The notes under the pieces: model-generated
What the model saw: only the letters and a program-made list of their open reading frames with translations
Database searches by the model: none
What the model was told of the DNA's origin: nothing
Position numbers and translations under genes: made by a program
Virus record (IMG/VR): IMGVR_UViG_3300028859_000009
Coordinates: 1-64,000 of that record
Strand: one strand, 5' to 3'
Source of the DNA: a virus
DNA length: 64,000 bases
Part shown: one piece after another, positions 4,489-58,865 of the stretch
How the letters are laid out: each line of letters opens with the position of its first letter
Position numbering within the stretch: position 1 is the stretch's first letter

Positions 4489-4815
4489 ATGAAGCATTTA
4501 AAATTATTTGAAAATAATACTGGAACAATAATTTATCTTTGTACTATATCAGATTGTGGTATAAATGATATGTATTCATTTGATGATAAATTAAGCAGAA
4601 ATAATTTTACTATAAATCATATTTGCAATGAATATAAAGACAATGATATAGATTATGAAATTGAAGATATTTTTGATATTGATACATTAATTGAGAATTT
4701 TAATGTATGTGATTTAGATAAAAAAATTTATTTAGATACTGCTAAGGTTTTAAATGATGTAAAATTAGATCCAGAAATACAAATAAAATATGATATTAAA
4801 AAATTTAATTTATAA
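4489..4815 (+). CDS. Small protein with candidate capsid-targeting leader
   Basis: 108 aa, starting 1 nt after the endonuclease stop. The N-terminus MKHLKLFENN fits the leader seen across this genome (M-K-x-h-x-x-F-E). The rest is acidic and Asn-rich (YKDNDIDYEIEDIFDIDTLIENF) with no recognised domain. It is followed by the first tRNA-Gly-like repeat. It may be an internal virion protein, by leader only. Confidence 0.55.
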   Translation: MKHLKLFENNTGTIIYLCTISDCGINDMYSFDDKLSRNNFTINHICNEYKDNDIDYEIEDIFDIDTLIENFNVCDLDKKIYLDTAKVLNDVKLDPEIQIKYDIKKFNL

Positions 4816-6929: not shown

Positions 6930-7412
6930 ATGGTAATTCCAATTTATTTAAATCCAGAATTTAAAGTAAGAGATATAATTGTATCATTAACTGAAATAAC
7001 TTTAAGTTATTGTAAATTTAGTTGTTATCATGAATTCACAATAATTGATTATGATTCAATAACGGGATACACCATAAGAGATAATGAGGCTGAAATAGAA
7101 TTAACTATATCATCAAGTGCATTAAAAACTTTCACAATAAAAACAGATATAAAAACATCAAAGAATAGATATATTAATATTGAAAATAAGAAAAAATTTA
7201 TTAATTTTATTGATGAAAATTGTCCGAATAAAAGAATTGAATGGGATTCTTATGATAAATATGATGCATGTAAATTAAAAAATTGTTACAATAATTATTG
7301 TGAAGTAGAAGAAAATTGTATTCGTTATATTAGTAATGATATAATTAATAAAAATTCTAATATTGTTAAATATATAAGAAGCAAAAAATTAAAAAAATTA
7401 AATGTCGATTAA
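6930..7412 (+). CDS. Cys-rich unknown protein with Lys/Leu tail
   Basis: 160 aa, not recognised. The middle is beta-rich. A Cys-rich patch lies near 113-130 (CKLKNCYNNYC, ENC) and could bind zinc. It ends YIRSKKLKKLN, one of the many (R)KxKLxKLN tails in this genome. It overlaps the next start by 11 nt. First gene of a small-gene run behind a host-like promoter. Confidence 0.7.
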   Translation: MVIPIYLNPEFKVRDIIVSLTEITLSYCKFSCYHEFTIIDYDSITGYTIRDNEAEIELTISSSALKTFTIKTDIKTSKNRYINIENKKKFINFIDENCPNKRIEWDSYDKYDACKLKNCYNNYCEVEENCIRYISNDIINKNSNIVKYIRSKKLKKLNVD

Positions 7413-8171: not shown

Positions 8172-8582
8172 ATGAAAGCAATAACTAAATTTTTTAGTAA
8201 ATGTTCTTTATGGATTATTTTTGGTATATCATTCGTGATATATTTTATTATTATTTATTCGATGGTTTATTTTATTACTATAGATAAAGATATTTCAGTT
8301 AATATTATGCTTAAATTGGCGCTTTATATATCTTTTTTATTTTCTTCATTAATAATAATTACTACTAATTCTACAAGGAAAAATAAAATTTTTTGGAATG
8401 ATAGTACAGAACTTGAAACTTTGATAAATAATTCTGATACAATTACCATATTAGAAGATTTATATAATATAAATATTCAATATTTAATTAAAATATCACA
8501 GGGTGGCATTCATTCTCAAGAAATAAATAGATTGATATCAATGATAGATATAAAAATTAAAACAATTAAGAAATTAAAATAA
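8172..8582 (+). CDS. Two-helix membrane protein
   Basis: 136 aa. Two hydrophobic helices lie near 12-33 and 45-65. A polar region follows, ending IDIKIKTIKKLK. Topology and N-terminus suggest an inner-membrane early protein. It overlaps the next ATG (TAATG). No homologue recognised. Confidence 0.65.
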   Translation: MKAITKFFSKCSLWIIFGISFVIYFIIIYSMVYFITIDKDISVNIMLKLALYISFLFSSLIIITTNSTRKNKIFWNDSTELETLINNSDTITILEDLYNINIQYLIKISQGGIHSQEINRLISMIDIKIKTIKKLK

Positions 8583-8821
8583 TGAAAAATACATCAGTTA
8601 AAAATTATTTAAAATCTATAAATTCATTAGGTGAAAATATAATAAAAGATATAAAATTATCTACGTATACTGATGATTTAGCTTGTTATTCAGTAAAATA
8701 TTTTGATATAGAACTTGCAAAAAATAGAATGAAATTAATTACTATTAGATTAATAGATTATCATCATTTTTGTAAACAAGATATTCGTAAGCAAAAACTT
8801 GAACAATTAAAAATATATTAA
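8582..8821 (+). CDS. Small protein with Lys/Leu tail
   Basis: 79 aa, helical, ending QDIRKQKLEQLKIY, which fits the RKxKLxxL tail. Unknown function, co-transcribed with the membrane proteins before it. Confidence 0.65.
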   Translation: MKNTSVKNYLKSINSLGENIIKDIKLSTYTDDLACYSVKYFDIELAKNRMKLITIRLIDYHHFCKQDIRKQKLEQLKIY

Positions 8822-13986: not shown

Positions 13987-15834
13987 ATGGCAGCGCCAAG
14001 ACTTCCAAATAATATAAATTATTGGATTAAAAAAGGAAAATCTGGAAAAAATGTATGTTTAATTACACACAACGATTTAGACGGAATTGTTTCCGCAATA
14101 ATAATGAAAAATTATTTAATTAATCATGATTTTAAAATTATCAAATATGGATTGATTGATTATCAAGAAGGTGTTTCAGCATTTAAACTTGATGACTCGT
14201 TGATTAATATAACTTTAGATTTTGCATCAGATGACGAAATATTTAATTATTACGTTGATCATCACGGTGTTTTTTCAGAAGAAGATAAAATAATAGCTCA
14301 AAAGAAAGGTAGCATAAAAACTGATACAGGTTCTGCTGCTGAAGGTTTAGCGTTACAATTAGGAATACCGTTTTCAAATGATACTAAAGATTGGATTGAT
14401 ATGGTTGATTCTGCTAAATATGAAGAATATAACGTTGATATCAAAGGAATATTAGATTTTGATTTAAAAAAAATTGCTAGCGGGCCTAATGCAAAATTAA
14501 ATTTTGCAGCATCATTTAATCAAATGTTAAAACGTTCTGATCATAAAACATTTATTGAAGTTATAAATGCATCTCAAGAGCCATCAATTTATAATATATT
14601 CAGGTTATTTAAAATATTCTATCCTAAAAACAATCCTAATTTCAAAAATGGTGATGAACCTGATTTTGTATCTGATGCATATTTAAGATTAGCACAAATG
14701 AAAATAAAAACAAAAGGTATTGGAGAAAAATATCAAGGATTCTCAGAAGATGGTAAAAAAATTATATTCACTTCACAAGAACAATTTTGGAAAAAATTCG
14801 CACAAAATATTTCATATATAGATTATGACAATGATGGTAATATTATAAATTCAGATGTAGTAAAATTACAAGTTAAACCAGTTGTATATCAAATTATTGT
14901 AAATCTTATGTATGTTCCATCTGGTACATGGTCTAATGCTCTAAGAGCAAAAGCAATTTTTGCACAAGATGTAAAATCTGGCATCATACCTAATGATACT
15001 AAAATAAATTTTGTATTATTACAATATGGTAATACTCTTCAACTTGCAAATTTAACAACTAAAATGTCAGATATGTTAGAAGAAGATTTACCAAAAGATA
15101 AATTAGGATTACCGATTAATAATTTAGGTAAATATATGGATGGTTTATTAAAAAATTTTCAAACTCATATGGGATATAATGATGATAGAACTGTTGCAGG
15201 GGGGCATGATGGTATAGGTTCTTGCTCTAATATATTCAATAAATGTAAATTAGAATCATATAAAGATATTAAGTTTTTAGATTTATTTAGAAATAAAATC
15301 ATTAATGATATATCAGGAGTTAAATGGGGAATAACTATGCTATGGAATGAATCAGATGAAAAAGGTAAAGTATTTGCACCTGATGAAGTTAATAAAAAAC
15401 TACTTGATATCAATAATATTAGTAGTGAAAATGATATTTTAATTGAAAATGATGAAAGAGAAATATTAAATTATCTTGTGATTAATAATATTATAGATAA
15501 AGATATTATTTCAAAATTTAAAAATAATACAATAAGAAAAATTTATGAAATTTATATTGAGACTGAATTTAATGAAATAAAAAATAGAACAATAAAATGT
15601 AATGATTTAGAAAGAATATATTTCAAAAATAATAGTGTTATAGAAAATAGTATATTATTTAAAGCAATATATACTAAATTTGAATTAAATAATATACATA
15701 GTGATATTCTTATTGATTCAAGAAAATTTCAACGAAAAGAACTTAAAAAATTTTTTAAATATATATTTAATATAATGAATAAAATATACTTAAAAGAAGA
15801 TACTAATAAAAAGGTTGAAAAATTTATAAAATAA
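13987..15834 (+). CDS. DHH/DHHA1-type phosphoesterase
   Basis: 615 aa. N-terminal DHH domain: THNDLDG (D30, D32), a TLDFASDD strand with D78 region, and the signature YVDHHG (D91-H92-H93). The C-terminal DHHA1-like domain has AGGHDGIGS (G405-G406-H407), the substrate-binding GGH loop. Known members are nanoRNases, cyclic-dinucleotide phosphodiesterases and RecJ exonucleases. It lacks RecJ's extra domains but carries an insertion (about 200-300) and a 140-residue Asn/Lys-rich tail, which may be an unrelated addition. Likely cytoplasmic, with metal-dependent hydrolysis of short or cyclic nucleotides. The exact substrate cannot be told. Confidence 0.88.
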   Translation: MAAPRLPNNINYWIKKGKSGKNVCLITHNDLDGIVSAIIMKNYLINHDFKIIKYGLIDYQEGVSAFKLDDSLINITLDFASDDEIFNYYVDHHGVFSEEDKIIAQKKGSIKTDTGSAAEGLALQLGIPFSNDTKDWIDMVDSAKYEEYNVDIKGILDFDLKKIASGPNAKLNFAASFNQMLKRSDHKTFIEVINASQEPSIYNIFRLFKIFYPKNNPNFKNGDEPDFVSDAYLRLAQMKIKTKGIGEKYQGFSEDGKKIIFTSQEQFWKKFAQNISYIDYDNDGNIINSDVVKLQVKPVVYQIIVNLMYVPSGTWSNALRAKAIFAQDVKSGIIPNDTKINFVLLQYGNTLQLANLTTKMSDMLEEDLPKDKLGLPINNLGKYMDGLLKNFQTHMGYNDDRTVAGGHDGIGSCSNIFNKCKLESYKDIKFLDLFRNKIINDISGVKWGITMLWNESDEKGKVFAPDEVNKKLLDINNISSENDILIENDEREILNYLVINNIIDKDIISKFKNNTIRKIYEIYIETEFNEIKNRTIKCNDLERIYFKNNSVIENSILFKAIYTKFELNNIHSDILIDSRKFQRKELKKFFKYIFNIMNKIYLKEDTNKKVEKFIK

Positions 15835-19687: not shown

Positions 19688-19885
19688 TGCTATTATGATG
19701 TTAAGTATGATAATGTACCTAATAATCTTATTATGTTTACCAGATATATGGGATCTGAACCAAAAAACGGATTAAAAAGGGAAGGTGAAATTTTTACTGG
19801 AGCAGAAGATGAATTAATATTAGCTACGAAAGAAGCAATAGAAATTCAAAAAATTAAAAATAAATCAAATAAATTCAATATGTAA
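19688..19885 (+). pseudogene. 3' fragment of the gene split by TnpB
   Basis: The open frame CYYDVKYDNVPNNLIMFTRY ... EGEIFTGAEDELILATKEAI ends at TAA 19885 and has no start codon nearby. It fits as the continuation of 18033-18218. Confidence 0.6.
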
Positions 19886-22631: not shown

Positions 22632-22802
22632 TTATTTAGAATTTATTTCATTTAATTTAGCAATTCTTTCTTCTTTTTTTAATTTTATTTTATCTTGATT
22701 GATTAATGTTTTCCATTTTTGTAGCATTTCTAACGATAAATTATTAAAATCATTATCAGGAAATTTAAAACTATAATCAAAATCATTCAAAGTTTTTTTC
22801 AT
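22632..22802 (-). CDS. 56-aa protein with Lys/Leu tail
   Basis: MKKTLNDFDYSFKFPDNDF ... MLQKWKTLINQDK then KLKKEERIAKLNEINSK. The ATG lies inside the end of the upstream gene (20-nt overlap), and the tail fits the KLxKLN pattern. Confidence 0.6.
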   Translation of the reverse strand: MKKTLNDFDYSFKFPDNDFNNLSLEMLQKWKTLINQDKIKLKKEERIAKLNEINSK

Positions 22803-23034
22803 AAATATTATTTAAATTATTAATTTTTTCTTTTCTATATTTTTTTAAATCTATCCAATTCCTGTCGATATCATCATCACGAAAATAAACACTATCTCCT
22901 ATATCATTCATTATATGTCCACAAATAGTTCCAGGTATAAAATGAGAATTTATCCTATATACATAATATTTTTTATTTTTAGTATAATACATATTAGTAT
23001 CTCCTAAATAAACTTGAACATCTCCAATTTTCAT
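22783..23034 (-). CDS. SH3-like small protein with Lys/Leu tail
   Basis: 83 aa: beta-rich body (MKIGDVQVYLGDTNMYYTKNK, GDSVYFRDDDID) then DLKKYRKEKINNLNNIYEKN. One of about a dozen paralogues of this plan. Confidence 0.65.
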   Translation of the reverse strand: MKIGDVQVYLGDTNMYYTKNKKYYVYRINSHFIPGTICGHIMNDIGDSVYFRDDDIDRNWIDLKKYRKEKINNLNNIYEKNFE

Positions 23035-23603
23035 TCTATTGATTTTAATTTTTGTAATCTAATATATGACTTAGTTTCTTGATGCTCATAATATTTCCAA
23101 ACTTCTTTTAATTGGGATTCATCTTTAATATGATTTTCATCATTATAATAAACTACATCAACATAAAAACGTTTAGGTGTAAATGGTAATTTAATTGTTT
23201 GCCTACTTGTTATACTATCATGACTATTATTATATGCTCTACCAGTAAAAGATGAATTATTTTCATCAACAAAAATAATAGCATCCAAATAATATGGATT
23301 ACTATCAATTTTTTCTTTAAATACTGCAGAACAACGATTATTTTGATAACATTCATCTGCTATATCATTCCATTCATCATCGGTACACATAATCGGAGCA
23401 ATTGGTTCAAAATTAGCCAATTTATTAAAATAACTAAGTACATATGATGCTGAAAATCCAGAATGACCTTGTTTAGAAAATATTTCAAGTAATTCTAATA
23501 TATTTTCTTGTATCCATTTATTTGGATCATTTTCGCATTTATCAATTGGTTTATAACCTAATTTAAGAAATTCTCTTTTTGCATGTTCTACTAAATTACT
23601 CAT
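23031..23603 (-). CDS. Unknown early-type protein
   Basis: 190 aa. The N-terminal helix MSNLVEHAKREFLKLGYKP is followed by PNKWIQENILELLEIFSKQGHSGFSASYVLSYFNKLANFEPIAPIMCTDDEW. This is the pattern of a small protein common in many phages (LVxHAKREFxxxGY ... HSGxSAxY). The second half is beta-rich, and it ends SYIRLQKLKSIE. It overlaps its neighbours at both ends by 4-8 nt. Confidence 0.75.
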   Translation of the reverse strand: MSNLVEHAKREFLKLGYKPIDKCENDPNKWIQENILELLEIFSKQGHSGFSASYVLSYFNKLANFEPIAPIMCTDDEWNDIADECYQNNRCSAVFKEKIDSNPYYLDAIIFVDENNSSFTGRAYNNSHDSITSRQTIKLPFTPKRFYVDVVYYNDENHIKDESQLKEVWKYYEHQETKSYIRLQKLKSIE

Positions 23604-23907
23604 TACTTTCTAATTTTTTAATTTTCTTTCTCCTCATAATATTATTATATTCTTTATATAATTCTGAATTTGATTCTAATTTATCAATTATATTATTTGC
23701 TTCTTCTTTCAATAAATTTTTTTTATATTCTATTCTTTCTTCATCACTCATATTTTCTATTCTTTCAAACTCTTTTATTATATAATCTAATCGATTTTCA
23801 TTCAATTTTATTCTGAGTTCTTGAAATCTATCGGATTCTTTATTAATTTCGTAATATGGATTAATAGAATTAAATATATTTTTTAATTTTTTACTAAATC
23901 TTCTCAT
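23596..23907 (-). CDS. Helical protein with Lys/Leu tail
   Basis: 103 aa, strongly helical and charged (DRFQELRIKLNENRLDYIIKEFERIENMSDEERIEYKKN), ending MRRKKIKKLESNE. Unknown. Confidence 0.65.
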   Translation of the reverse strand: MRRFSKKLKNIFNSINPYYEINKESDRFQELRIKLNENRLDYIIKEFERIENMSDEERIEYKKNLLKEEANNIIDKLESNSELYKEYNNIMRRKKIKKLESNE

Positions 23908-24146
23908 GATAATTGTTTTATTTCGTTTAATTTAATTTTTCTATATTCTTGCAATGAAATAAAATCACATTCAAAATACCAACTTTGAGTTGTATTACTA
24001 TCATTATCACTCACCGAATACATAAATTCAGACGAACGAATTGAAAAATTCTCAATTTTATAGATTTTATAATCAACAAGATCCCAAGCATAAATAGTTT
24101 TAGAATTATTTATGAATATAACATTATCTCCGATATTAAATTTCAT
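23904..24146 (-). CDS. SH3-like small protein with Lys/Leu tail
   Basis: 80 aa: FNIGDNVIFINNSKTIYAWD, then FISLQEYRKIKLNEIKQLS. It shares both the barrel-like start (GDxVxxI) and the tail with genes at 26646-28132 and 29965. Confidence 0.7.
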   Translation of the reverse strand: MKFNIGDNVIFINNSKTIYAWDLVDYKIYKIENFSIRSSEFMYSVSDNDSNTTQSWYFECDFISLQEYRKIKLNEIKQLS

Positions 24147-25101: not shown

Positions 25102-25266
25102 ATGAAGAAAAATTATAAATTTGAATATCAGATAGTAAATATGGATTATGCAAACTTATATCCTAAACATATTATATTTGATGACGAATTTATGAGAGAA
25201 ATTAAAAGAAAAGAACTCAATAAGAAAAGAAAAGAAAAAATCGAAAAAATAAATAATTTAAAATGA
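25102..25266 (+). CDS. 54-aa protein with Lys-rich tail
   Basis: MKKNYKFEYQIVNMDYANLY ... IKRKELNKKRKEKIEKINNLK. Its stop overlaps the next ATG (ATGA, 25263-25266). The tail fits the KxKIxKIN variant. Confidence 0.6.
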   Translation: MKKNYKFEYQIVNMDYANLYPKHIIFDDEFMREIKRKELNKKRKEKIEKINNLK

Positions 25267-25774: not shown

Positions 25775-26113
25775 ATGCAAATAATAAAAATAAATTCTAA
25801 AAAACAAGATAACGGGTTATGGGGTATGCCTAAAAACTGTTATTCTATGGATAAATATATTCAATTGAATGAAAAAAATGAATTAATTAGATCTGGCGCA
25901 ATAATTGCAATGACTGAGAAATTTAATTTAAGTTTTTCAATTTTTATGTCAAGTGAATATTCTTTCTATATTAAATTTGATGATTATTTGCCATTTGTTA
26001 TTACATACTCTAAATATGAAGTAGTTAATGATATATTATATCAATTTAATGATGATAAAGAACATAATATTTTTTTAAGAAAACAAAAATTAGAAAAAAT
26101 TAATAATGTATAA
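25775..26113 (+). CDS. Small protein with Lys/Leu tail
   Basis: 112 aa, beta-rich (QDNGLWGMPKNCYSMDKYI, FYIKFDDYLPFVITY), ending NIFLRKQKLEKINNV. First of nine nested genes to 28132; it overlaps the next by 8 nt. Confidence 0.7.
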   Translation: MQIIKINSKKQDNGLWGMPKNCYSMDKYIQLNEKNELIRSGAIIAMTEKFNLSFSIFMSSEYSFYIKFDDYLPFVITYSKYEVVNDILYQFNDDKEHNIFLRKQKLEKINNV

Positions 26114-26402
26114 ATATAAAGAAAATACGCAATCATATGAAAATTTACTCAAAGAATTAAAAATATATTATTCAAATATACTAAATGATAATTTTAAATA
26201 TACTGTATATGATATATCAGGATTTAGAAAAAGTTATCATAATAATTCTGAGTATGTTATTTCTGTTAAAATGAGAAAAAAATATAGATTATCAGGATAT
26301 TTTTATACTACTGAACATCATTATTTATCTGAATGCAAATTAAATAATATATCCAGAATAAATAAACTAAATAAACTAAATAAATTATGCCAACCAATAT
26401 AG
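26106..26402 (+). CDS. Small protein with Lys/Leu tail, paralogue of next gene
   Basis: 98 aa. YENLLKELKIYYSNILNDNF ... YVISVKMRKKYRLSGYF matches the next protein (YLLLLRELKKYYDEQIPDSDF ... YVVTIHYNH) in layout. Tail ISRINKLNKLNKLC. Overlap with next gene 16 nt. Confidence 0.7.
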   Translation: MYKYKENTQSYENLLKELKIYYSNILNDNFKYTVYDISGFRKSYHNNSEYVISVKMRKKYRLSGYFYTTEHHYLSECKLNNISRINKLNKLNKLCQPI

Positions 26403-26659
26403 TTTCAAACTTAGATACCAAATCATATTTATTGTTATTAAGAGAACTGAAAAAATATTATGATGAACAAATACCAGACAGTGATTTTTATATACGTGAA
26501 ATAAGATATGATTGTAATAATGATAATTATGTTGTAACTATTCATTATAATCATATAGTGAATACAAATATGAGATTTAGATTATTATCTTTACCCGAAA
26601 ATCAATTAATTTTAATTTTAAGAAAAGTTAAACTAAATAAACTAAATGAAAGAAAATGA
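26387..26659 (+). CDS. Small protein with Lys/Leu tail, paralogue of previous gene
   Basis: 90 aa, ending ILILRKVKLNKLNERK. The next ATG lies within the codons of KLNERK (14-nt overlap). Confidence 0.7.
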   Translation: MPTNIVSNLDTKSYLLLLRELKKYYDEQIPDSDFYIREIRYDCNNDNYVVTIHYNHIVNTNMRFRLLSLPENQLILILRKVKLNKLNERK

Positions 26660-26918
26660 ATTGACAAATTATGATTTTAAAATTGGCCAAATTGTCACTT
26701 GTGTAAAAATTGATGATAATGATTATTGGGATCAACATTTAACAATAGGTAAAAAATATAAAATTGAATATATTGATTGGTATTTTCAAAATAAAATTGT
26801 AGTAAAAAGTGACACTAAAAAATTCAGCCAATTTGTACCAATAAGTTTTTTTACTGATATTAAATCAATCAGAAAATTAAAATTAAAAAAACTAAATAAA
26901 TATGTACAAAATAGGTGA
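26646..26918 (+). CDS. SH3-like small protein with Lys/Leu tail
   Basis: 90 aa: FKIGQIVTCVKIDDNDYW, LTIGKKYKIEYI, SFFTDIKSIRKLKLKKLNKYVQNR. The GxxVxC ... LTxGKxYxI barrel-like pattern is shared by about ten genes here. Confidence 0.7.
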   Translation: MKENELTNYDFKIGQIVTCVKIDDNDYWDQHLTIGKKYKIEYIDWYFQNKIVVKSDTKKFSQFVPISFFTDIKSIRKLKLKKLNKYVQNR

Positions 26919-27237
26919 TGTAGTTGTTTGTATAGATAATGAACCTAAACAAGATTATGTTTTTTATGATTTCGTATCATATATGTTAGAATTTCATAAA
27001 ATAAATCCATTAGAAATAAATAAAACTTACACAATTAAAAAAATTCTATCATATTGGGGAGATGATGGAAATTGTTATGAATCACTTGATGATACTAGTA
27101 GTCGATATGAAAGCACTTCATATATATTAGATGAAATTGAAAATAAATATGGATATTCAGTTTATGATATGACGAGATTTATAAGTGTAAAAGGATATAG
27201 AAAATTAAAATTAAATAAACTAAATGAAATTAGTTAA
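26902..27237 (+). CDS. SH3-like small protein with Lys/Leu tail
   Basis: 111 aa: YKIGDVVVCIDNEP, EINKTYTIKKI, then GYRKLKLNKLNEIS. A longer loop than its paralogues. Overlaps neighbours by 17 and 14 nt. Confidence 0.7.
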   Translation: MYKIGDVVVCIDNEPKQDYVFYDFVSYMLEFHKINPLEINKTYTIKKILSYWGDDGNCYESLDDTSSRYESTSYILDEIENKYGYSVYDMTRFISVKGYRKLKLNKLNEIS

Positions 27238-27478
27238 AAATAATAAATTTGAAATTGATGATTATGCTATTTGTATAAAAAATAGCAATCAATTAATAAC
27301 AGTAGATAAAGAATATAAAATATTATGGATATATAAAAATAGCGGATATTTAAATATAATATGCGATAATAATCTTATAATGCCGTTACCTGATTCATAT
27401 TTTATAAATAAAAAGAATTTAAAAGATTTAAGAAAATTTAAACTTGAAAAACTAAATAAATATGTTCAAAACAAATGA
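27224..27478 (+). CDS. SH3-like small protein with Lys/Leu tail
   Basis: 84 aa: FEIDDYAICIKNSNQLITVDKEYKIL then DLRKFKLEKLNKYVQNK. The tail is nearly the same as in the gene at 26646, including YVQNK. Confidence 0.7.
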   Translation: MKLVKNNKFEIDDYAICIKNSNQLITVDKEYKILWIYKNSGYLNIICDNNLIMPLPDSYFINKKNLKDLRKFKLEKLNKYVQNK

Positions 27479-27686
27479 TACCATTGTTTGTATAAAAACC
27501 TTTGAATATTCAAATATATTGACAATAAATAAAGAATATAAAATATCAGCAATGGGAATATTTAATACTGATAATATATGCGTAACATGCGATATAAATA
27601 TTAATTATTTTGTACCTAAATCCTGTTTTGCTAGTAAAAAAGAACTTAGAAAAATGAAAATAAATGAAATCAAAAAACAAATTTAA
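27462..27686 (+). CDS. SH3-like small protein with Lys-rich tail
   Basis: 74 aa: FKTNDTIVCIKTFEYSN, LTINKEYKI, FVPKSCFASKKELRKMKINEIKKQI. Very close to the next gene. Confidence 0.7.
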   Translation: MFKTNDTIVCIKTFEYSNILTINKEYKISAMGIFNTDNICVTCDININYFVPKSCFASKKELRKMKINEIKKQI

Positions 27687-27906
27687 AGTTGGTGAATTAG
27701 TTATTTGTATAAAAAATGATACTTTTACTGAACTATTATTGACAATAAATAACGAATATAAAGTACTTCAATTAAGTAATTGTAATTCAAGTAATATGTA
27801 TATGATATGTAATAATAATTATAATTTTTTTGTACCTGAATCTTATTTCATTAGTAAACAAAAACTTAGAAAAATGAAAATAAATGAAATCAAACAACAA
27901 ATTTAA
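27664..27906 (+). CDS. SH3-like small protein, recent tandem duplicate
   Basis: 80 aa: FKVGELVICIKNDT, LTINNEYKVL, FVPESYFISKQKLRKMKINEIKQQI. Its flanking neighbours share long stretches (FKVGEL.ICIKND), so the array grew by tandem duplication. Confidence 0.7.
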   Translation: MKSKNKFKVGELVICIKNDTFTELLLTINNEYKVLQLSNCNSSNMYMICNNNYNFFVPESYFISKQKLRKMKINEIKQQI

Positions 27907-28132
27907 AGTTGGAGAATTAGCTATTTGTATAAAAAATGATAATACAAATGATTTATTAATAACAGTAGGTAAAGAATATAGAATATTAAACATTTATGAA
28001 GATGAAAAAAATAGTTCTATATTAATAATGACTGATGTTAACGTTGATTGCTATATAATTATTAAAACATTTTTTATTAGTAAAAGAATTGAAAGAAAAA
28101 ATAAATTGAAAGAAATTAGTGAAACATTTTAA
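27884..28132 (+). CDS. SH3-like small protein, end of array
   Basis: 82 aa: FKVGELAICIKNDNTNDLLI, VGKEYRIL, ending RIERKNKLKEISETF, a more diverged tail. It starts inside the previous gene's tail (23-nt overlap). Confidence 0.7.
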   Translation: MKSNNKFKVGELAICIKNDNTNDLLITVGKEYRILNIYEDEKNSSILIMTDVNVDCYIIIKTFFISKRIERKNKLKEISETF

Positions 28133-28188: not shown

Positions 28189-29583
28189 ATGATAGAATTA
28201 AAAGGTAAATATACAGATGCTAAAATATTTATAGATGAAGTTGAAGAAGGAGTATTTACTCAAATATACAATGTTATAAACTCAGAAACATCTAATGGAT
28301 TGAAAATTAGAATAATGCCAGATGCACATGTTGGATCGGATATCTGCATTGGATTTTCCATGGAATTAGGAAAATACATCAAACCAAGTACGATCGGAAC
28401 AGATATCGGATGTGGCATGTTGTCTGCAAGATTTTCAGGTAAAACTTCATTAGATTTAGAGAAAATTGATAATCTGATACGTGAAAATGTTCCTATGGGA
28501 TTTGATATGCATGAAGATATAGTATTCAAAAATATTCCTTTTGATGATGTACAAGTAATTGCTGATAAATTTGCTGCAAAATTTAATGAGAAATTTGGAA
28601 CTTCTTATGAGTCACCAACATATAATGAAAAATGGTTAACAGCTAAATTGAAAGATATTAATATGGATGAAGGTAAATTTTTTCAATCAATTGGTACATT
28701 AGGAGGAGGCAATCACTTTATTGAACTTGGCAAATCAGATAAAACTAATGATTATTGGATAACAGTTCACTCTGGCTCAAGAAATTTTGGTTTGAAAATT
28801 GCTGAATATTGGACTAATGTAGCAAGAGGTAAAGTATTTGTTGCTACCAAAGAATATAATATGGAATTAGATGATATTGTTATGAACACTTATCCAAAAT
28901 CTGATATTGATAAAAAAATAAAAGATTTAAGAACAAGATATAGTCTTAATATTAATAAAGAATATTTAGACGGTGAAAATCTTATTGGATATCTATTTGA
29001 TATGATTTTTGCACAACAATATGCTCTATGGAATAGAAAAACTATGTTATCTTTGATAAAAAAAGCATTAAATATCAAAAAATTTGATGAAGAAATAAAT
29101 TCAATACATAACTATGTCGACTTTAAAGACTTTATCATAAGAAAAGGAGCAATATCATCTTATCTTGGAGAAAAAATGATTATACCATTCAATATGAGAG
29201 ATGGAATACTTATATGTGAAGGGAAATCGAATGAAGACTGGAATAATTCAGCTCCGCATGGTAGTGGTAGATTGATGTCAAGATCAAAAGCAAAAGAGTC
29301 AATTGATTTAAAAGATTTTCAGAGAGTAATGAAAAATGTTTATTCAACATCTGTATGTAAAAGTACAATTGATGAATCTCCATTTGCTTACAAAAACTCA
29401 GAAATGATTGAAAAAGCTATTGAACCTACTGCATTAATTCTTGATAAAATTAAACCAATCTTAAACATCAAAGATAAATCTGAAGGTACTTCATGGAAAG
29501 ATAGAAAAGAACAAAAAAAGAAAGATAAACAACGTAGCAATGAAAGAAATGCTATTTCTTATCAAAAAATGAAAAAGTTTTAA
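28189..29583 (+). CDS. rtcB: RtcB-type 3'-phosphate RNA ligase
   Basis: 464 aa. Motifs: MPDAHVG (metal), GTDIGCGM with C75 (metal), LGGGNHFIEL, VHSGSRNFG, KGAISS and APHGSGR, with the His that takes GMP. These are all the RtcB signatures. RtcB joins 2',3'-cyclic phosphate and 5'-OH RNA ends, repairing tRNA or other RNA cut by nucleases. The C-terminal 35 residues are a Lys-rich extension (EQKKKDKQRSNERNA). Own host-like promoter and terminator. In a phage it probably repairs RNAs cut by host defence. Confidence 0.93.
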   Translation: MIELKGKYTDAKIFIDEVEEGVFTQIYNVINSETSNGLKIRIMPDAHVGSDICIGFSMELGKYIKPSTIGTDIGCGMLSARFSGKTSLDLEKIDNLIRENVPMGFDMHEDIVFKNIPFDDVQVIADKFAAKFNEKFGTSYESPTYNEKWLTAKLKDINMDEGKFFQSIGTLGGGNHFIELGKSDKTNDYWITVHSGSRNFGLKIAEYWTNVARGKVFVATKEYNMELDDIVMNTYPKSDIDKKIKDLRTRYSLNINKEYLDGENLIGYLFDMIFAQQYALWNRKTMLSLIKKALNIKKFDEEINSIHNYVDFKDFIIRKGAISSYLGEKMIIPFNMRDGILICEGKSNEDWNNSAPHGSGRLMSRSKAKESIDLKDFQRVMKNVYSTSVCKSTIDESPFAYKNSEMIEKAIEPTALILDKIKPILNIKDKSEGTSWKDRKEQKKKDKQRSNERNAISYQKMKKF

Positions 29584-29964: not shown

Positions 29965-30213
29965 ATGTTTAAAGAAGGAAATATAATAGTTTGTATTGAT
30001 GATAGTAATGATACTAAAACATTTGAACCATATAAGAATTTGAAAAAATATTCTACGTATAAAATAGAAAGTTATGGTCATTATTATATGCTTAATCAAT
30101 ATATAAAATTAATTAATATAGGAGGAAATTTCAGAGCAGACAGATTCATATCACTAAAAGAATATAGAAAATTAAAACTTGAAAAGTTGTGTTTAAATCA
30201 GGAGATAAAGTAG
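29965..30213 (+). CDS. SH3-like small protein with Lys/Leu tail
   Basis: 82 aa: FKEGNIIVCIDDSNDTKTF ... FISLKEYRKLKLEKLCLNQEIK. Same family as the 26646-28132 array. Overlaps the next gene by 25 nt. First gene of the dnaK unit. Confidence 0.7.
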   Translation: MFKEGNIIVCIDDSNDTKTFEPYKNLKKYSTYKIESYGHYYMLNQYIKLINIGGNFRADRFISLKEYRKLKLEKLCLNQEIK

Positions 30214-30536
30214 TAATTGTAGATTATAATATATTTTCATTTGATGATTATTTGAAACTTTTAAAAAATAATAAATTATTTGAAAAAGATAATATTAATA
30301 TTAAAAAATATGATATATTAACAGTCAGAAGAGTGTGGTATTCATCAGATAATGATTATTTTACAACAGATTATTATAAAACTTTTGGTAATTTAGATTA
30401 CATATATATAAATTTATCATTTGAAGAATTTGGTAATAGTTCATTTTCATTAGATGTTAAAAGATTCATATCACTAAAAGAATATAGAAAATTAAAATTA
30501 AAAAAAATTAATAATTCAAAAAAAAAATTAAAGTAA
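30189..30536 (+). CDS. SH3-like small protein with Lys/Leu tail
   Basis: 115 aa: FKSGDKVVIVDYNIFSFDDY, then RFISLKEYRKLKLKKINNSKKK. It shares FISLKEYRKLKL with the previous gene exactly. dnaK starts 3 nt later. Confidence 0.7.
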   Translation: MFKSGDKVVIVDYNIFSFDDYLKLLKNNKLFEKDNINIKKYDILTVRRVWYSSDNDYFTTDYYKTFGNLDYIYINLSFEEFGNSSFSLDVKRFISLKEYRKLKLKKINNSKKKLK

Positions 30537-30539
30537 ATT

Positions 30540-32411
30540 ATGAGTAAAAAAATTATTGGAGTAGATCTTGGATCATACAATTCGGTAGTAAGCATCATTG
30601 AGGGAGGTGTAGCAGTTGTTATACCAAACGCAGAAGGAAATTTAACAACTCCTTCTATCGTAGCATTTGATCAAAAAACAGGAGAAATTAAAGTTGGAGA
30701 GTCTGCTAAACGCCAAGCAGCATTAAATCCTAAAAATACCATTTTTAATATTAAACGACTTATTGGTAGAACATATGATGAAGTTAAACATCTAAAACGT
30801 CCTTATGATATAGTTGATAATAATGGTAAGGCAGCAGTAAAAATTGGTGATAGAGTATATTCGCCAGAAGAAATTTCAGCAATGATTCTTCAAAAAATGA
30901 AAAAAACAGCAGAAGATTATCTATCTTGTAAAATAGACTCGGTAATTATAACGACTCCAGCTTATTTCAATTCGGATGAAAGAAGTTGCACTAAGGTAGC
31001 AGGTGAAATAGCTGGGTTTCAAGTAGATAGAATTATTTCAGAGCCAACAGCAGCAGCATTAAATATTAAAGATAAGACAGATAAACTATATATGGTCATA
31101 GATGCTGGTGGTTGTACAACGGATAGCTCAGCAATTACGGTATCAGATGGTTTATATGAAGTACTATCAACAGACGGTAATTTAGATTTAGGCGGAAATT
31201 TGATTGATGATGCAATTGTTGATTATGTTTCTGAAGAATTTTTAAAAGAAACTGGTGTAGATATTCGTAAAGATTCAATGGCACTACAACGTATTACTGA
31301 ATCCGCAGAAAAAGCAAAAATAGAATTATCTAGTGTAACACAAACTGAAATCAACTTACCGTACATCACGGCGGTAGATGGACAACCACGACATTTAAAT
31401 AAAATTATTACTCGTGCTAAATTTGAGCAATTAATTCAATTTTATGTTGATAAAACAATGAAATTAATTATGTCATCACTTAAGAAAAGTAACAAACAAA
31501 TTTCACAATTTGATGATATAATTTTAGTGGGGGGTAGCACCAGGATACCTTATTTGGTAGAAAGTATTGAAAAATACTTTGGTAAAAAAGCAAATAAATC
31601 TCTAAATGCTGATACTGCAATTGCATCTGGAGCCGCTATTCAAGGTTCTGTATTAAATGGAGATAATACAGATATATTATTACTTGATGTAACAGCGTTG
31701 AACTTTTCTATTGAGACAATGGGTGAAATTGCTACTATCATGATTCCCGCAAATACTACGATCCCGACATCTAAGAGTCAAGTATTTAGTACAGCATCAG
31801 ATTCACAACCAAGCGTACAGGTAAATGTTTGTACTGGAGATAGACCTCTATACAAAAACAATAAACATTTAGGCACATTTTCACTTGATGTTCCACCTGC
31901 TCGTAGAGGCACACCACAGATTGAAATTACATTCAGTTTAGATAGCAATTCAATTTTGACAGTTAAAGCAGTTGATAAAGCAACTGGTAAATCTAATGAT
32001 ATTAGAATAGAAGGTAAATCATCTTTAACAAAAGAAGAAATTGAAAAAATGAAGATGGAAGCTGAGCAAAATGCGGAATCAGATAAAAAAGAAAAAGAAA
32101 AGATTGATAAACTTAATCAAGCAGATGCTATGATTTTTCAAACTGAAAAACAAATTGAAGAATATGGCGATAAATTGAATGAATCAAATAAAACTGAATT
32201 GAATTCTAAGCTTGATAATCTTAAAGAAGCTCACAAAACTCAAAATCTGGATGATATTGATAAATATAGTAAAGAATTGAATGATACTTGGCAAAATATA
32301 AGTTCTAAGCTTTACGAAGAGAATAATAATCAATCAACTAATGAAAGTACATCAACTAATAAAGATGAATCTGAAAACATAAATGACGTGGATTTCGAAG
32401 AAGTTCACTAA
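30540..32411 (+). CDS. dnaK: Hsp70 chaperone DnaK, full length
   Basis: 623 aa, complete. The ATPase domain has IGVDLGSYNSVV (phosphate 1), RLIGR, SVIITTPAYFNSDER, the linker-facing ILVGGSTRIP (adenosine loop) and DTAIASGAA. The phosphate 2 loop is VIDAGGCTTDSS instead of the usual DLGGGTFDVS, so nucleotide handling may differ. The substrate-binding domain (LLLDVTALNFSIETMG, TIPTSKSQVFSTASDSQ) and lid are present, and it ends DVDFEEVH like cellular DnaK. DnaJ and GrpE are not in the window, so it may use host partners or help capsid assembly. Less AT-rich than neighbours, which suggests transfer from a bacterium. Confidence 0.96.
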   Translation: MSKKIIGVDLGSYNSVVSIIEGGVAVVIPNAEGNLTTPSIVAFDQKTGEIKVGESAKRQAALNPKNTIFNIKRLIGRTYDEVKHLKRPYDIVDNNGKAAVKIGDRVYSPEEISAMILQKMKKTAEDYLSCKIDSVIITTPAYFNSDERSCTKVAGEIAGFQVDRIISEPTAAALNIKDKTDKLYMVIDAGGCTTDSSAITVSDGLYEVLSTDGNLDLGGNLIDDAIVDYVSEEFLKETGVDIRKDSMALQRITESAEKAKIELSSVTQTEINLPYITAVDGQPRHLNKIITRAKFEQLIQFYVDKTMKLIMSSLKKSNKQISQFDDIILVGGSTRIPYLVESIEKYFGKKANKSLNADTAIASGAAIQGSVLNGDNTDILLLDVTALNFSIETMGEIATIMIPANTTIPTSKSQVFSTASDSQPSVQVNVCTGDRPLYKNNKHLGTFSLDVPPARRGTPQIEITFSLDSNSILTVKAVDKATGKSNDIRIEGKSSLTKEEIEKMKMEAEQNAESDKKEKEKIDKLNQADAMIFQTEKQIEEYGDKLNESNKTELNSKLDNLKEAHKTQNLDDIDKYSKELNDTWQNISSKLYEENNNQSTNESTSTNKDESENINDVDFEEVH

Positions 32412-39592: not shown

Positions 39593-39835
39593 ATGTTAAA
39601 TAAAAATACAAAATATATTTGTAAAAAGGCATATAATAATTATATTGAAGGTGAATATTATTATATTATATTTTATGATGATTATATAGTTTATTTGTAT
39701 AATTTTGGAATATTTTCTCTTAATAAAACTAAATTTGTAGGAGATTATCCTAATTTCTATGAATATTTCTGTACACTTCAAGAACAGAGAAAACTTAAGT
39801 TATTAAAAATAAAAAGTGAATATGAAATAAGTTAA
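39593..39835 (+). CDS. Small protein with Lys/Leu tail
   Basis: 80 aa, Tyr-rich and beta-rich (YICKKAYNNYIEGEYYYIIFY), ending TLQEQRKLKLLKIKSEYE. Same plan as the SH3-like tail family. Confidence 0.65.
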   Translation: MLNKNTKYICKKAYNNYIEGEYYYIIFYDDYIVYLYNFGIFSLNKTKFVGDYPNFYEYFCTLQEQRKLKLLKIKSEYEIS

Positions 39836-42218: not shown

Positions 42219-42356
42219 ATGGAAGAGTTAATTAAAATGTTAAATAATTCTTGTGAAGAATTAGAATTAATTACTGAACTTACTTTAAAATATAAAGATA
42301 TTCAGGTAGTAGGAGAAATGCTATTATATAAAAAAAATGGAAGATGGTATTCTTAA
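42219..42356 (+). CDS. 45-aa protein
   Basis: MEELIKMLNNSCEELELITE ... MLLYKKNGRWYS. It overlaps the next gene by 20 nt. Unknown. Confidence 0.5.
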   Translation: MEELIKMLNNSCEELELITELTLKYKDIQVVGEMLLYKKNGRWYS

Positions 42357-42519
42357 TAAATTAATGACAGCTAGTATATCTCAATTAGAATTACTTAAAC
42401 GAGATTATTATTTCAGATATTATAAAAAAGATATCACAAACAAGCTTATTGATATAGCAATAAAGAATGTTACAAGAAGAAATAAATTAAACAAACTAAA
42501 TTTATGTGTGGAATTGTAG
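42337..42519 (+). CDS. 60-aa helical protein with Lys/Leu tail
   Basis: MEDGILNKLMTASISQLELL ... NVTRRNKLNKLNLCVEL. AsnB starts within its last codons (16-nt overlap). Confidence 0.65.
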   Translation: MEDGILNKLMTASISQLELLKRDYYFRYYKKDITNKLIDIAIKNVTRRNKLNKLNLCVEL

Positions 42520-44013: not shown

Positions 44014-44325
44014 ATGTCGTATTGGAATTATAGAATTTTAGCAAAAAGAATGGTAACAGATTTTGACTCTGAAGTCGAATTTGGTGTTTATGAAGTATAT
44101 TACAATGATGAAAGTGATATACCTGAATCTTGTACAGAAAATTCAATAAACATTTTTTCATATGAAAGTGAATGTGAGGATCCAATAGAATCTATACAAT
44201 GGCAATTAGATATGATAAAAAAAGCATCTGATAAACCTGTATTAGACTATGATAATTTTCCAAATGAATATGTTAAGCATTTAAGAAAAAAGAAATTAAA
44301 ATCAATTGAAAATAATTTTAAATAA
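44014..44325 (+). CDS. Conserved small phage protein (MSYWNYRIL)
   Basis: 103 aa. MSYWNYRILAKR, YEVYYNDESDIPESCTENSI, KPVLDYDNFPNEY is a pattern I recognise from many phages and plasmids, unknown in role. It ends HLRKKKLKSIENNFK with the Lys/Leu tail. Confidence 0.75.
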   Translation: MSYWNYRILAKRMVTDFDSEVEFGVYEVYYNDESDIPESCTENSINIFSYESECEDPIESIQWQLDMIKKASDKPVLDYDNFPNEYVKHLRKKKLKSIENNFK

Positions 44326-47664: not shown

Positions 47665-47919
47665 ATGAATAGATTTTTTGGAATGATGCCTTCAAGTGAG
47701 GTAAAAAAAAGTAAAAGCTTTAAAGTTGGTGTTGGACAATTAACAGTAACAATTCAAGCAGGTGAAAATGGTTGGACAATTTTATTTGCTGATAGTTCAT
47801 CAGAATATAAAGATGTTATAGATACTACTGAAAATAATTTTAATAAAGCATTATATGTATTAAAAACTCATTTTTGTGATGTAAATGAAATAGATGAAAA
47901 AGAAAAATTTGAATGCTAA
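47665..47919 (+). CDS. Conserved small protein (MNRFFGMMPSSEV)
   Basis: 84 aa. MNRFFGMMPSSEV, LTVTIQAGENGWTILFADSS is a familiar unnamed phage family often found beside the 47228-type protein, as here. Confidence 0.75.
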   Translation: MNRFFGMMPSSEVKKSKSFKVGVGQLTVTIQAGENGWTILFADSSSEYKDVIDTTENNFNKALYVLKTHFCDVNEIDEKEKFEC

Positions 47920-48197
47920 ATGATATAATAATGATAACATCTTTGAAAATTGGTGATAAAATTGTACTTAAACAACCTACAAATATATTTGAAGAAATGG
48001 GTGTACCAAAAACATTAAATTTTAATGAAATTTATACTGTAGATCAATTAGTCAATTCAATAGTAGACAATTCAATTATACGTGTTGGATTAAAAGAAGA
48101 ACCATATCAAATATATTATATAGGATTATTTGAAACATCATTGAAATTTGAAAGAAAACAAAAATTAAACAATTTAAAAAAATATGAAACAAACTAA
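47913..48197 (+). CDS. SH3-like small protein with Lys/Leu tail
   Basis: 94 aa (or 88 from ATG 47931): LKIGDKIVLKQPTN, FNEIYTVDQL, ending FERKQKLNNLKKYETN. Its tail codons overlap the radical SAM start by 14 nt. Confidence 0.65.
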   Translation: MLNDIIMITSLKIGDKIVLKQPTNIFEEMGVPKTLNFNEIYTVDQLVNSIVDNSIIRVGLKEEPYQIYYIGLFETSLKFERKQKLNNLKKYETN

Positions 48198-53432: not shown

Positions 53433-53690
53433 ATGAAATATACTGATCTAATATTAAATAATTTTAAATATGATATTGAAGATGATATTTGGTATGATAC
53501 TAAATCTTCTTATCGTGCAATGGAAATTGAATATTTAAATGTTAATGATAGTTTCAAGTTATATTATGGAGGTTTTGACATTTATTTAGGAGAATTCTCA
53601 GATAAACATTTATTCTTAAATAAGATTAAATATCATAAAACTAAATTATTAAGGTTAAATAAATTAAAAGAATTAAATAAAACAATATGA
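53433..53690 (+). CDS. Small protein with Lys/Leu tail
   Basis: 85 aa, beta-rich (SFKLYYGGFDIYLGEFSDK), ending KTKLLRLNKLKELNKTI. Overlaps the next ATG. Confidence 0.65.
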   Translation: MKYTDLILNNFKYDIEDDIWYDTKSSYRAMEIEYLNVNDSFKLYYGGFDIYLGEFSDKHLFLNKIKYHKTKLLRLNKLKELNKTI

Positions 53691-54967: not shown

Positions 54968-55321
54968 ATGAAAATAAGAAGTGGATTTGTGAGCAACTCA
55001 AGTAGTTCGTCTTTTGTAATTCTGTTACCTGAGAATTTTCTTGATGTTATTGATTATGATAAGATTACTAATAAATATGAAGATTTTCCATTAGATGGAT
55101 TTAAAGACTTATTAAAAATGCTCATCGACAATGAAGAATTATGGTATGATTCCATATATGAGTATTGTAATACAGATGAATTTGAAGATTTCGATTTTCC
55201 TGATCATTTAGATAAATTAGTTAAGCCATATGTAATTGCAGAAGTTGAAGGTGGACCAGATGAAGGCAAAATTATTATTGCAAATAAAAATAAAATTAAT
55301 GAAATTTTAAATAATAAATAA
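54968..55321 (+). CDS. SNSSSSSF-family protein 1
   Basis: 117 aa starting MKIRSGFVSNSSSSSFVILL. After the fixed N-terminus the body is acidic (NLDVIDYDKITNKYEDFPLDG in type) and differs from the other family members. First of six. Confidence 0.75.
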   Translation: MKIRSGFVSNSSSSSFVILLPENFLDVIDYDKITNKYEDFPLDGFKDLLKMLIDNEELWYDSIYEYCNTDEFEDFDFPDHLDKLVKPYVIAEVEGGPDEGKIIIANKNKINEILNNK

Positions 55322-55322
55322 T

Positions 55323-55766
55323 ATGAAAATACGAAATGGATTTGTAAGCAACAGTAGTAGTAGTTCTTTTATAGTTCTTATTAAAAATGATCAAAAAATA
55401 TCAAATAATATGCTTATGAAATTATTTGATTTAAAAGAAAACTCTATTCTATGTGGATTTGCTTCTGAATTATCTAATTGGATGTTAGAAAATCTAAAAG
55501 AAATGACTATTAAAGATATATTTAATAATTATTGTTATTCAGAAGATAAAAATTTATCAGAAGAAGATATGATAAATATAATTATAAATGATAGTTGTCC
55601 TGATATTTCAAGAGAAGAGTTAGAAAAAATAAAGAATAAAGAATATCGTTATTATGAATGTTCAGCATCTGATGATTCTGGTGATGGACTAGAATCTTAT
55701 CTATGTGATAAAGGAATAAATGTTGATAATGATAACATTCGTATTCAAAGTGGAGGAAGTTATTAA
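55323..55766 (+). CDS. SNSSSSSF-family protein 2
   Basis: 147 aa starting MKIRNGFVSNSSSSSFIVLI; 1 nt after the previous stop. Body helical/acidic (LSEEDMINIIINDSCPDISR), ending in a Gly-rich piece. Unknown. Confidence 0.75.
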   Translation: MKIRNGFVSNSSSSSFIVLIKNDQKISNNMLMKLFDLKENSILCGFASELSNWMLENLKEMTIKDIFNNYCYSEDKNLSEEDMINIIINDSCPDISREELEKIKNKEYRYYECSASDDSGDGLESYLCDKGINVDNDNIRIQSGGSY

Positions 55767-55785
55767 AATTAAAAAAAAAAATTAA

Positions 55786-56178
55786 ATGAAAATAAGAAAT
55801 GGTTTTGTAAGTAATTCAAGTAGTTCATCTTTTGTGATAAGAGGAATTAAAATTACAGTAGAAGAATTAGTTAAAGTATTAAATATTCCTATTGAAGAAT
55901 TTGATAATATTGAAGATGAATATGATAAATATGAATTTATATCAAATAAAATTGATGATGATTTCAGAATTGAAGTAAATGGTAATTATTTTGGAGAAAA
56001 AGATTATAATACTCTTATTGTAGGTGATTCACTCGGTGGATTAGAAGATGGTGAAGTAACAGAATTTAAAGATCGTACACCAGAAGAAGATGATGCATTA
56101 CGTCAAAAATTTGAAAAATATGGAATTTCAGGAGTAATTTGCACGTATATTCAAATGGTAAGTAATGACAATTATTAA
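55786..56178 (+). CDS. SNSSSSSF-family protein 3
   Basis: 130 aa starting MKIRNGFVSNSSSSSFVIRG. It then has ITVEELVKVLNIPIEEFDNI, FIVEVNGNYFGEKDYNTLIV-like strands and FKDRTPEEDDALRQKFEKYG. Unknown. Confidence 0.75.
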   Translation: MKIRNGFVSNSSSSSFVIRGIKITVEELVKVLNIPIEEFDNIEDEYDKYEFISNKIDDDFRIEVNGNYFGEKDYNTLIVGDSLGGLEDGEVTEFKDRTPEEDDALRQKFEKYGISGVICTYIQMVSNDNY

Positions 56179-56203
56179 ATAATTATTTATAATTAAAAAA
56201 ATT

Positions 56204-56647
56204 ATGACAAAAAATCAAATTCATAATATATTTTATTACCTTGGTATTATGTTAAATGATAATAAAATCATATATACATCACCTGATTATTTAATAGAAA
56301 AATCAATGACTTTTTTTAATAAATTAGGTAAAAATATTTTTATATGTGATATTGAAAATAATTATAAGAAACAAGAGATAGATTATGATATGAATTTTTG
56401 GTCTAAATATTGTGAAATATGGAAAATTAATAAGCAAGATTTTGAATTATTAAATATTATTAATTTTATATTAAATTCTAATATTAATAATACTAAAAAT
56501 GTAATTAAAAATTTCGAAAAATATATTGGAAATATTGATATAATATCTGATTCAGATTTAAGTTTTAAATTGCATCCAATATTACGATCTCATATAAATA
56601 ATAGTATTAATTTTGATAGTAGATATTTAAAATTAATATCATTTTAA
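56204..56647 (+). CDS. Unknown protein, MTKNQI start
   Basis: 147 aa, helical, Asn/Ile-rich, with MTKNQIHNIFYYLGIMLNDN; no SNSSSSSF start although it sits among those genes. Unknown. Confidence 0.65.
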   Translation: MTKNQIHNIFYYLGIMLNDNKIIYTSPDYLIEKSMTFFNKLGKNIFICDIENNYKKQEIDYDMNFWSKYCEIWKINKQDFELLNIINFILNSNINNTKNVIKNFEKYIGNIDIISDSDLSFKLHPILRSHINNSINFDSRYLKLISF

Positions 56648-56650
56648 TAA

Positions 56651-56687
56651 AATTAAATAAAAAATTAAATAAAAAATTAAATAAAAA
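56651..56687 (+). repeat. Tandem 12-bp A-rich repeat before IMPDH/GMPR gene
   Basis: Three copies of AAATTAAATAAA-type words (56650-56687) directly before ATG 56688. Probably an A-rich translation-enhancing leader made by slippage. Confidence 0.7.
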
Positions 56688-57722: not shown

Positions 57723-57742
57723 AAATAAAAGATAAATAAAAA

Positions 57743-58045
57743 ATGAAAATAAGAACAGGATTTGTAAGTAATTCAAGTTCAAGTAGTTTTGTAATAATTG
57801 GAGTCAAAAGATTAGATTGTACAGAAGAAGAAATTGAACAAGGGTTTGATAATGGAATAGAAACACTTTATGTGGATATGACTAACTATAATTATATTAT
57901 TGGTTATATAATTTCAAATGGAGAAGAATTATATAGTAGTATAACATCAATAGATGATATAATAGAAAAATCTAAATTGGTATCTGAAACATTAAATGTT
58001 GATATCAGTGAAGTTGAATTAATAACTGGAACTAGATATTGTTAA
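57743..58045 (+). CDS. SNSSSSSF-family protein 4
   Basis: 100 aa starting MKIRTGFVSNSSSSSFVIIG. Body acidic alpha/beta (EEEIEQGFDNGIETLYVDMT), differing from the others. Unknown. Confidence 0.75.
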   Translation: MKIRTGFVSNSSSSSFVIIGVKRLDCTEEEIEQGFDNGIETLYVDMTNYNYIIGYIISNGEELYSSITSIDDIIEKSKLVSETLNVDISEVELITGTRYC

Positions 58046-58059
58046 TATAAATAATAAAA

Positions 58060-58698: not shown

Positions 58699-58865
58699 TA
58701 GAAATTTTAAAATATGTAACTTCAGATTTTTGGACATTTATTGGATGTTTTTTAATAATTTCTATTATAGGAAGTTTTATTGTAGGAATTTTTGAAGCAA
58801 TTTTCAAAAAACCAGACATCAAAATAGATTTAACTAATAAAAAAGATAAAAATAAAATAATATGA
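58695..58865 (+). CDS. 56-aa single-pass membrane protein
   Basis: MIEILKYVTSDFWTFIGCFL ... IISIIGSFIVGIFEAIF, then a Lys-rich end. ATGA overlaps at both ends place it firmly between the two SNSSSSSF genes. Confidence 0.65.
   Translation: MIEILKYVTSDFWTFIGCFLIISIIGSFIVGIFEAIFKKPDIKIDLTNKKDKNKII

Follow-up and report, generated by a model that had tools for sequence, protein, structure and literature searches.

A nine-residue motif, R1-K2-x-K4-[LI]5-x-x-[LI]8-N9, recurs at the C-termini of numerous small and for the most part otherwise unrelated proteins in one lineage of phages, where selection acts on the amino acids of the tail and not on its codons. This tail is probably a lineage-specific modular docking or address helix, found at the C-terminus of many unrelated small, mostly accessory proteins. 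Its primary role would be that of a tag and its use as a leader of the next gene would be secondary, given that the peptide is conserved, the codons are ordinary and the tail is kept where no overlap exists.

Source phages and the C-terminal motif

The window, i.e., the whole stretch of 64,000 nucleotides analysed here, comprises bases 1-64000 of an IMG/VR phage record of 140,730 bases in total, with a GC content of 22 to 23%. An identical copy (100%) of the gene array of the window lies in G001, a 256-kb contig from the same phage that carries further genes of the same kind, and the comparison was extended to the related contigs G002 (330 kb), G003 (235 kb), G004 (97 kb), G009 (155 kb) and G008 (55 kb). 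The contigs derive from metagenomes and include near-duplicates, genes with identical protein products were collapsed into one, and all gene calls, for both the record and the contigs, were made in the present analysis. The source lineage is one of very large, AT-rich tailed phages, with a topoisomerase II, DNA polymerases, helicases, PhoH and numerous HNH and homing endonucleases encoded in G002, and a T4-type gp23 and a terminase in G009.

Other genes of these phages were also recorded. The RtcB gene is intact in the window (28189-29583) and is split in G002 (85656-88144) by an insert, perhaps an intron that encodes a homing endonuclease, with an ORF of 261 aa. A phage-encoded DnaK (Hsp70) lies at 30540-32411 of the window and shows 73 to 82% identity in three related contigs. 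The sole matches in the phage collection for the 615-aa protein encoded at 13987-15834 were two records, both from an uncultured huge phage of 735 kb, at 36.6% identity, which hints at a distant kinship.

Tails of the form R-K-x-K-[L/I]-x-x-[L/I]-N stand at the ends of 27-28 proteins of the window. The initial annotation had reported more than 20 such RKxKLxKLN-type tails, all of which are present at the genes listed, and the number is thus higher than had been claimed. The tails examined individually are given below, with the gene that carries each.

7377-7403, plus strand: RSKKLKKLN, gene 6930-7412
8786-8812, plus strand: RKQKLEQLK, gene 8582-8821
22810-22836, minus strand: RKEKINNLN, gene 22783-23034
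23034-23060, minus strand: RLQKLKSIE, gene 23031-23603, Tad3 family (PF25185)
23916-23942, minus strand: RKIKLNEIK, gene 23904-24146
25228-25254, plus strand: RKEKIEKIN, gene 25102-25266
26078-26104, plus strand: RKQKLEKIN, gene 25775-26113; 8-nt overlap with the start of 26106
26355-26381, plus strand: RINKLNKLN, gene 26106-26402; 16-nt overlap with 26387
26621-26647, plus strand: RKVKLNKLN, gene 26387-26659; 14-nt overlap with 26646
26871-26897, plus strand: RKLKLKKLN, gene 26646-26918, SH3-like body; 17-nt overlap with 26902
27199-27225, plus strand: RKLKLNKLN, gene 26902-27237, SH3-like body; 14-nt overlap with 27224
27431-27457, plus strand: RKFKLEKLN, gene 27224-27478, SH3-like body; 17-nt overlap with 27462
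27648-27674, plus strand: RKMKINEIK, gene 27462-27686; 23-nt overlap with 27664
27868-27894, plus strand: RKMKINEIK, gene 27664-27906; 23-nt overlap with 27884
28094-28120, plus strand: RKNKLKEIS, gene 27884-28132; RtcB is next, 56 nt off
30166-30192, plus strand: RKLKLEKLC, gene 29965-30213, SH3-like, modelled with AlphaFold2
30486-30512, plus strand: RKLKLKKIN, gene 30189-30536; the DnaK start is 3 nt past the stop
39788-39814, plus strand: RKLKLLKIK, gene 39593-39835; next gene at 91 nt
42475-42501, plus strand: RRNKLNKLN, gene 42337-42519; tail kept and overlap gone in the G002 and G004 orthologues
44284-44310, plus strand: RKKKLKSIE, gene 44014-44325; tail retained in the G002 and G004 orthologues
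48153-48179, plus strand: RKQKLNNLK, gene 47913-48197; next gene at 713 nt
53652-53678, plus strand: RLNKLKELN, gene 53433-53690
58660-58686, plus strand: RKDKLDEIN, gene 58060-58698, MKIRSGFVSNSSSSSFI family, 212 aa

The last of these genes lies in a region (54968-59383) that holds five paralogues with the start MKIR.GFVSNSSSSSFI, and the tail is found on this one only (58060).

In the 140,730-base record, the motif reached at least 9 bits in the last 30 aa of 41 of the 238 C-termini, compared with 4 of 1025 internal 30-aa segments, none of the 238 N-termini and about one of 238 shuffled C-termini. Tailed genes make up 103 of 467 (22%) in G001, where internal segments gave 6 of 1845, and the six related contigs together returned 103/467, 85/579, 73/395, 25/157, 21/210 and 11/105, with the motif in 0.1 to 0.8% of their internal segments. 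Shuffling the tails by nucleotide or by codon left the motif in 5 of 1810 in either case (0.3%), the A-rich intergenic leaders contained it in only 7 of 472, and a degenerate DNA pattern for RKxKLxKLN had five occurrences in the window, where dinucleotide shuffles predict 0.00.

As a fitted profile would be circular, an unseeded count was performed, in which every gapped pattern of four residues was tallied over the C-terminal 20 residues of a single protein drawn at random from each of 987 body clusters, the bodies having been clustered with their final 24 residues trimmed off. The pattern that ranked first was R-x-x-K-[LI]-x-x-[LI], which was C-terminal in 178 of the 987 clusters and internal in 2. 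A composition artefact is ruled out by the internal, N-terminal, shuffled, codon-shuffled and intergenic-leader controls, together with the unseeded count, and the AT-richness that the initial annotation had raised as a possible full explanation fails to account for the tail. The motif is not strictly C-terminal, because an internal copy occurs in one array of tandem paralogues in G003 (217172-221494, loci L210 and L211), at a fixed site near residue 38, where it takes the form FYDExxIRKxKLCKLNNQ and replaces the C-terminal position.

As far as sampled, the tail is specific to this lineage. A tblastn search of 50,697 phage records with a 21-residue tail query, which is weakly sensitive at this length, returned no match, tails were found in 0 of 250 ORFs in the 150 kb examined of the 735-kb huge phage, and no description of the motif was found in the open-access papers searched. 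The tail was also considered as a bacterial feature and rejected, as the scan of genome contigs for YRKxKLxKLN gave five matches, i.e., the chance level, one of which (Roseivirga) ends a 362-aa frame, with the other four in very short frames.

Tail anatomy and the proteins that carry it

The information content of the aligned C-termini rises sharply at R1 and falls off past N9, with K2 present in 78% and N9 in 47% of the cores. Between the core and the stop there are 0 to 18 residues (e.g., KYVQNK or CQPI), which often correspond to the start of the next gene in another frame, as in the case of the tail end KYVQNK, which lies opposite the next-gene start MFKTN. The tailed proteins are small, with a median of 87 aa, compared with 136 aa for the tailless ones.

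Judged by their spacing (i, i+3, i+4, i+7), R1, K4, L5 and L8 would share one face of a helix. The AlphaFold2 model of gene 29965-30213 (40 aligned SH3-like members) predicts a beta barrel followed by a C-terminal helix at residues 64-77, which is the tail, with a pLDDT of 96 and 89 over the tail blocks, the SH3-like family being the only one for which a confident model of the tail was obtained. A fold search of the PDB with this model gave weak barrel matches only, none at E <=0.001, and the viral structure library gave one match, at 7e-4, to an uncharacterised protein.

The initial annotation had described the tailed proteins as otherwise different, which holds for most of the bodies, given that they are unrelated by BLAST, but not for the array, which is mostly a single SH3-like family. 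The 319 tailed bodies compared by BLAST formed 157 clusters, including 104 singletons, and one cluster consisted of 72 SH3-like barrels, the family to which the array genes between 26646 and 28132 are related, as are 29965, 30189 and 23904. The other tailed bodies made up 156 clusters, their domains including DUF7448 and DUF6794 as well as zinc ribbons and an ATPase-like fragment, and PHROGs, Pfam and PADLOC provided no family for most of them. Pure homology was rejected, since the bodies fail to cluster, the 72-member SH3-like cluster notwithstanding.

The gene at 23031-23603 (minus strand), which sits in a run of tailed genes, encodes what is, on the basis of its sequence, a homologue of Tad3, a type I Thoeris inhibitor family. 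Its product matches PF25185 over residues 2-121 with 122.1 bits, compared with a curated cut-off of 27, and bears the tail at residues 182-190; the AlphaFold2 model of this homologue had a mean pLDDT of 44 and was too poor for use. In this lineage, R..KL..[IL] or a near form was present in all the Tad3-family members seen, whereas the Tad3 homologues of Vibrio, Rhizobium, Enterococcus and crAss phages do not have the tail, which implies that a pre-existing body has either gained or lost it. The same body can thus occur with or without the tail.

A docking helix is suggested by the discrete conserved face, the unrelated bodies, the anti-defence homologue and the variable distance to the C-terminus. 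The tag would be a nine-residue amphipathic basic helix at the C-terminus, whose R1/K4/L5/L8 stripe may dock in the groove of a common putative receptor, most likely phage-encoded, and this docking would gather diverse host-interaction and anti-defence proteins at one place. Recognition of a free C-terminus is unlikely, given the 0 to 18 residues that separate the core from the stop. The same variability is relevant to a stability tag, i.e., a degron or a protective signal that controls how long early proteins persist, which would agree with the tail being carried by numerous small accessory proteins, including one from an anti-defence family. This alternative is rather unlikely, however, as ssrA-like and other C-terminal degrons lie at a fixed distance from the last residue, which the tail does not, and the defined four-residue face is better suited to docking.

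Shared ancestry alone would require one ancient SH3-like gene to have been duplicated, with bodies that diverged past recognition and a C-terminal helix that changed slowly. While this would account for the 72 of 319 bodies in a single cluster, for the tandem duplicates with intact junctions (27462, 27664 and 27884) and for the fewer array cassettes in G004, it is quite improbable as a general explanation, given that the Tad3, DUF7448, DUF6794, zinc-ribbon, ATPase-like and SNSSSSSF bodies have folds or families of their own, that the Tad3 relatives elsewhere are tailless, and that in the orthologue sets the body changes faster than the tail.

Amino acids, codons and the start of the next gene

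In the array at 25775-28132, consecutive genes overlap by 8, 16, 14, 17, 14, 17, 23 and 23 nt, precisely the range of 8-23 nt that had been claimed. Among same-strand pairs, an overlap of more than 4 nt was found in 171 of 300 (57%) when the first gene was tailed and in 123 of 1318 (9%) when it was tailless (odds ratio 12.9, Fisher P 2.4e-68), and this excess was present in every size class. The commonest distance from R1 to the ATG is 25 nt, seen in 57 of 255 cases, with the ATG in the AAT-G of N9, and the gene starts of these phages are A-rich upstream and have no Shine-Dalgarno (SD) sequence, which bears out the earlier claim that the DNA of the tail lies in the A-rich leader of the next gene. 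Initiation of this kind is an established mechanism in Bacteroidota, e.g., Flavobacterium johnsoniae (PMC6847099; also PMC6728339), and the SD-less, A-rich leaders of these phages fit it. Phage bS21 was considered as a translation link and set aside, with S21 absent from seven related records.

The orthologues of G001 and G002 presented a pN/pS of 0.17 in the core, 0.58 in the body and 0.92 in the residues past the core, and in three genome pairs the values were 0.17, 0.32 and 0.27 for the core, 0.46 to 0.58 for the bodies and 0.69 to 1.13 just past the core, all as uncorrected proportions from small sets (82 to 236 core codons) of genes that had been selected as tailed, by profile, from one of the two genomes compared. 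Synonymous divergence between G001 and G002 was 0.39 in the core and 0.43 in the body, that of the core was mostly near normal, and the direction agrees across the three genome pairs. Codon choice in the tail, counted on PWM-selected genes, is that of the genome as a whole, and the nucleotide selection at synonymous tail sites that would mark a Bacteroidota-type leader was not seen. Given the profile selection and the small codon sets, the argument rests on the unseeded count and on the comparison across orthologues. The case of conserved synonymous positions and free amino acids, raised by the initial annotation, is the opposite of what was observed, and its alternative suggestion, that the peptide itself matters, is favoured by the conserved amino acids and by the tails kept without an overlap.

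The tail is retained in 46 of 48, 16 of 17 and 20 of 20 orthologues in the three genome pairs, and it persists in pairs where the overlap was gained or lost, as in 42337-42519 and its counterparts in G002 and G004. The motif is equally strong, with the same frequency of N9, in the 67 tailed genes that are not closely followed by another start (22 are convergent). Such tails are found at 27884 (next start at +56), 39593 (+91) and 47913 (+713), and in the convergent genes 44306, 66589 and 115440 of the 140,730-base record. Two genes had been cited initially as having no close follower, and this is correct for 27884, which is followed by RtcB, but not for 30189, where DnaK begins 3 nt later.

A nascent-peptide effect, in which the basic tail would slow termination from within the ribosome exit tunnel and promote re-initiation at the overlapping start, would bring together the conservation of the peptide and its strong association with overlaps. 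Even so, it is very unlikely, as the core may lie anywhere between 0 and 18 residues ahead of the stop, the tail is kept even without a downstream start, and charge alone would not predict L/I at positions 5 and 8. It is hardly credible that the tail exists primarily because its A-rich DNA serves the next gene as a ribosome-binding leader, the peptide being a mere by-product, since this reading, which the overlap excess, the 25-nt peak and the A-rich, SD-less leaders would support, is already contradicted by conserved amino acids at free synonymous sites, by the same motif in the 67 genes without a close start (22 convergent), by its near absence from A-rich intergenic leaders (7/472) and by tails that stay in place when the overlap is lost. 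The initial proposal that one sequence serves as both protein tail and translation signal stands in respect of the overlap and the leader position, which are real, but not in respect of the signal as the cause of the tail.

Under the docking-helix reading, the A-rich DNA of the tag is available from the outset as an SD-less leader like those of Bacteroidota, and the next gene often begins inside the tag, most commonly at the AAT-G of N9, so that tagged genes are packed into overlapping cassettes. This leader role would be opportunistic, and not the reason for the motif.

Known systems and a second terminal class

Encapsulin cargo-loading peptides are short, C-terminal, common to unrelated cargo and groove-binding, and the known ones are rich in Gly, Ser and Leu. 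The phage tail is likewise a short C-terminal peptide on unrelated proteins, but differs from them in being basic, R-K-x-K-L-x-x-L. The capsid-targeting sequence (CTS) of the T4 proteins IPI, IPII, IPIII and Alt is N-terminal and is cut off by the prohead protease. It resembles the tail in that one short sequence is found on highly diverse small proteins, whereas the tail is C-terminal (0 to 18 residues from the end, and on 0 of 238 N-termini) and has another consensus. The T4 internal proteins, a diverse anti-defence set whose only common element is the capsid-targeting sequence (PMC3012670), would be the best analogy for the tail, which is not claimed as a member of the CTS family.

In the import of proteins into the phage nucleus of the Chimalliviridae, a recognition surface was found, but not a terminal signal (PMC11087766); the likeness here is the selective sorting of jumbo-phage proteins, and the difference is the terminal motif of the present phages. 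Termination-reinitiation at overlapping genes proceeds without SD in Bacteroidetes (PMC6728339), and the phage genes resemble translational coupling in being co-directed and overlapping, although their overlaps are of 7 to 32 nt, within the conserved tag, and not mainly of 1 or 4 nt. The phage starts are like the A-rich, SD-less leaders of Bacteroidota (PMC6847099), from which the tail differs by a conservation at the level of the amino acids that is superfluous for a leader.

A second terminal class was found, in which 58 proteins of G001, 93 of G002 and 37 of G003 end exactly in [KR]F[NS][LIMV], mostly KFNL or KFNI. Most of those in G001 and G002 start with M-K-[YH]-[IL]-K-x-[FY]-E, which is T4-CTS-like, and this class (MKYIKxFE...KFN[LI]) and the RKxKLxxL tail are mutually exclusive. 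The class occurs throughout G001, G002 and G003, and its examples in the window are as follows.

4489-4815: protein of this class
19748-19885: protein of this class

It is possible, if tentative, that these phages sort their proteome by at least two zip codes, one being the C-terminal helix, on about one-fifth of the genes, and another the class with N-terminal MKYIKxFE and C-terminal KFN[LI], on about one-tenth. One receptor or compartment of the huge phage would then read the C-terminal helix, and the second class would mark another address.

The function of most small genes of giant phages is not known, and the tag groups about 100 of them in one genome. Used as bait, it may lead to the receptor or compartment, and from there to a shared location or role for many uncharacterised genes, including the anti-defence homologue. 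The tag also shows how a peptide and an SD-less leader may occupy the same DNA, packing genes into overlapping cassettes.
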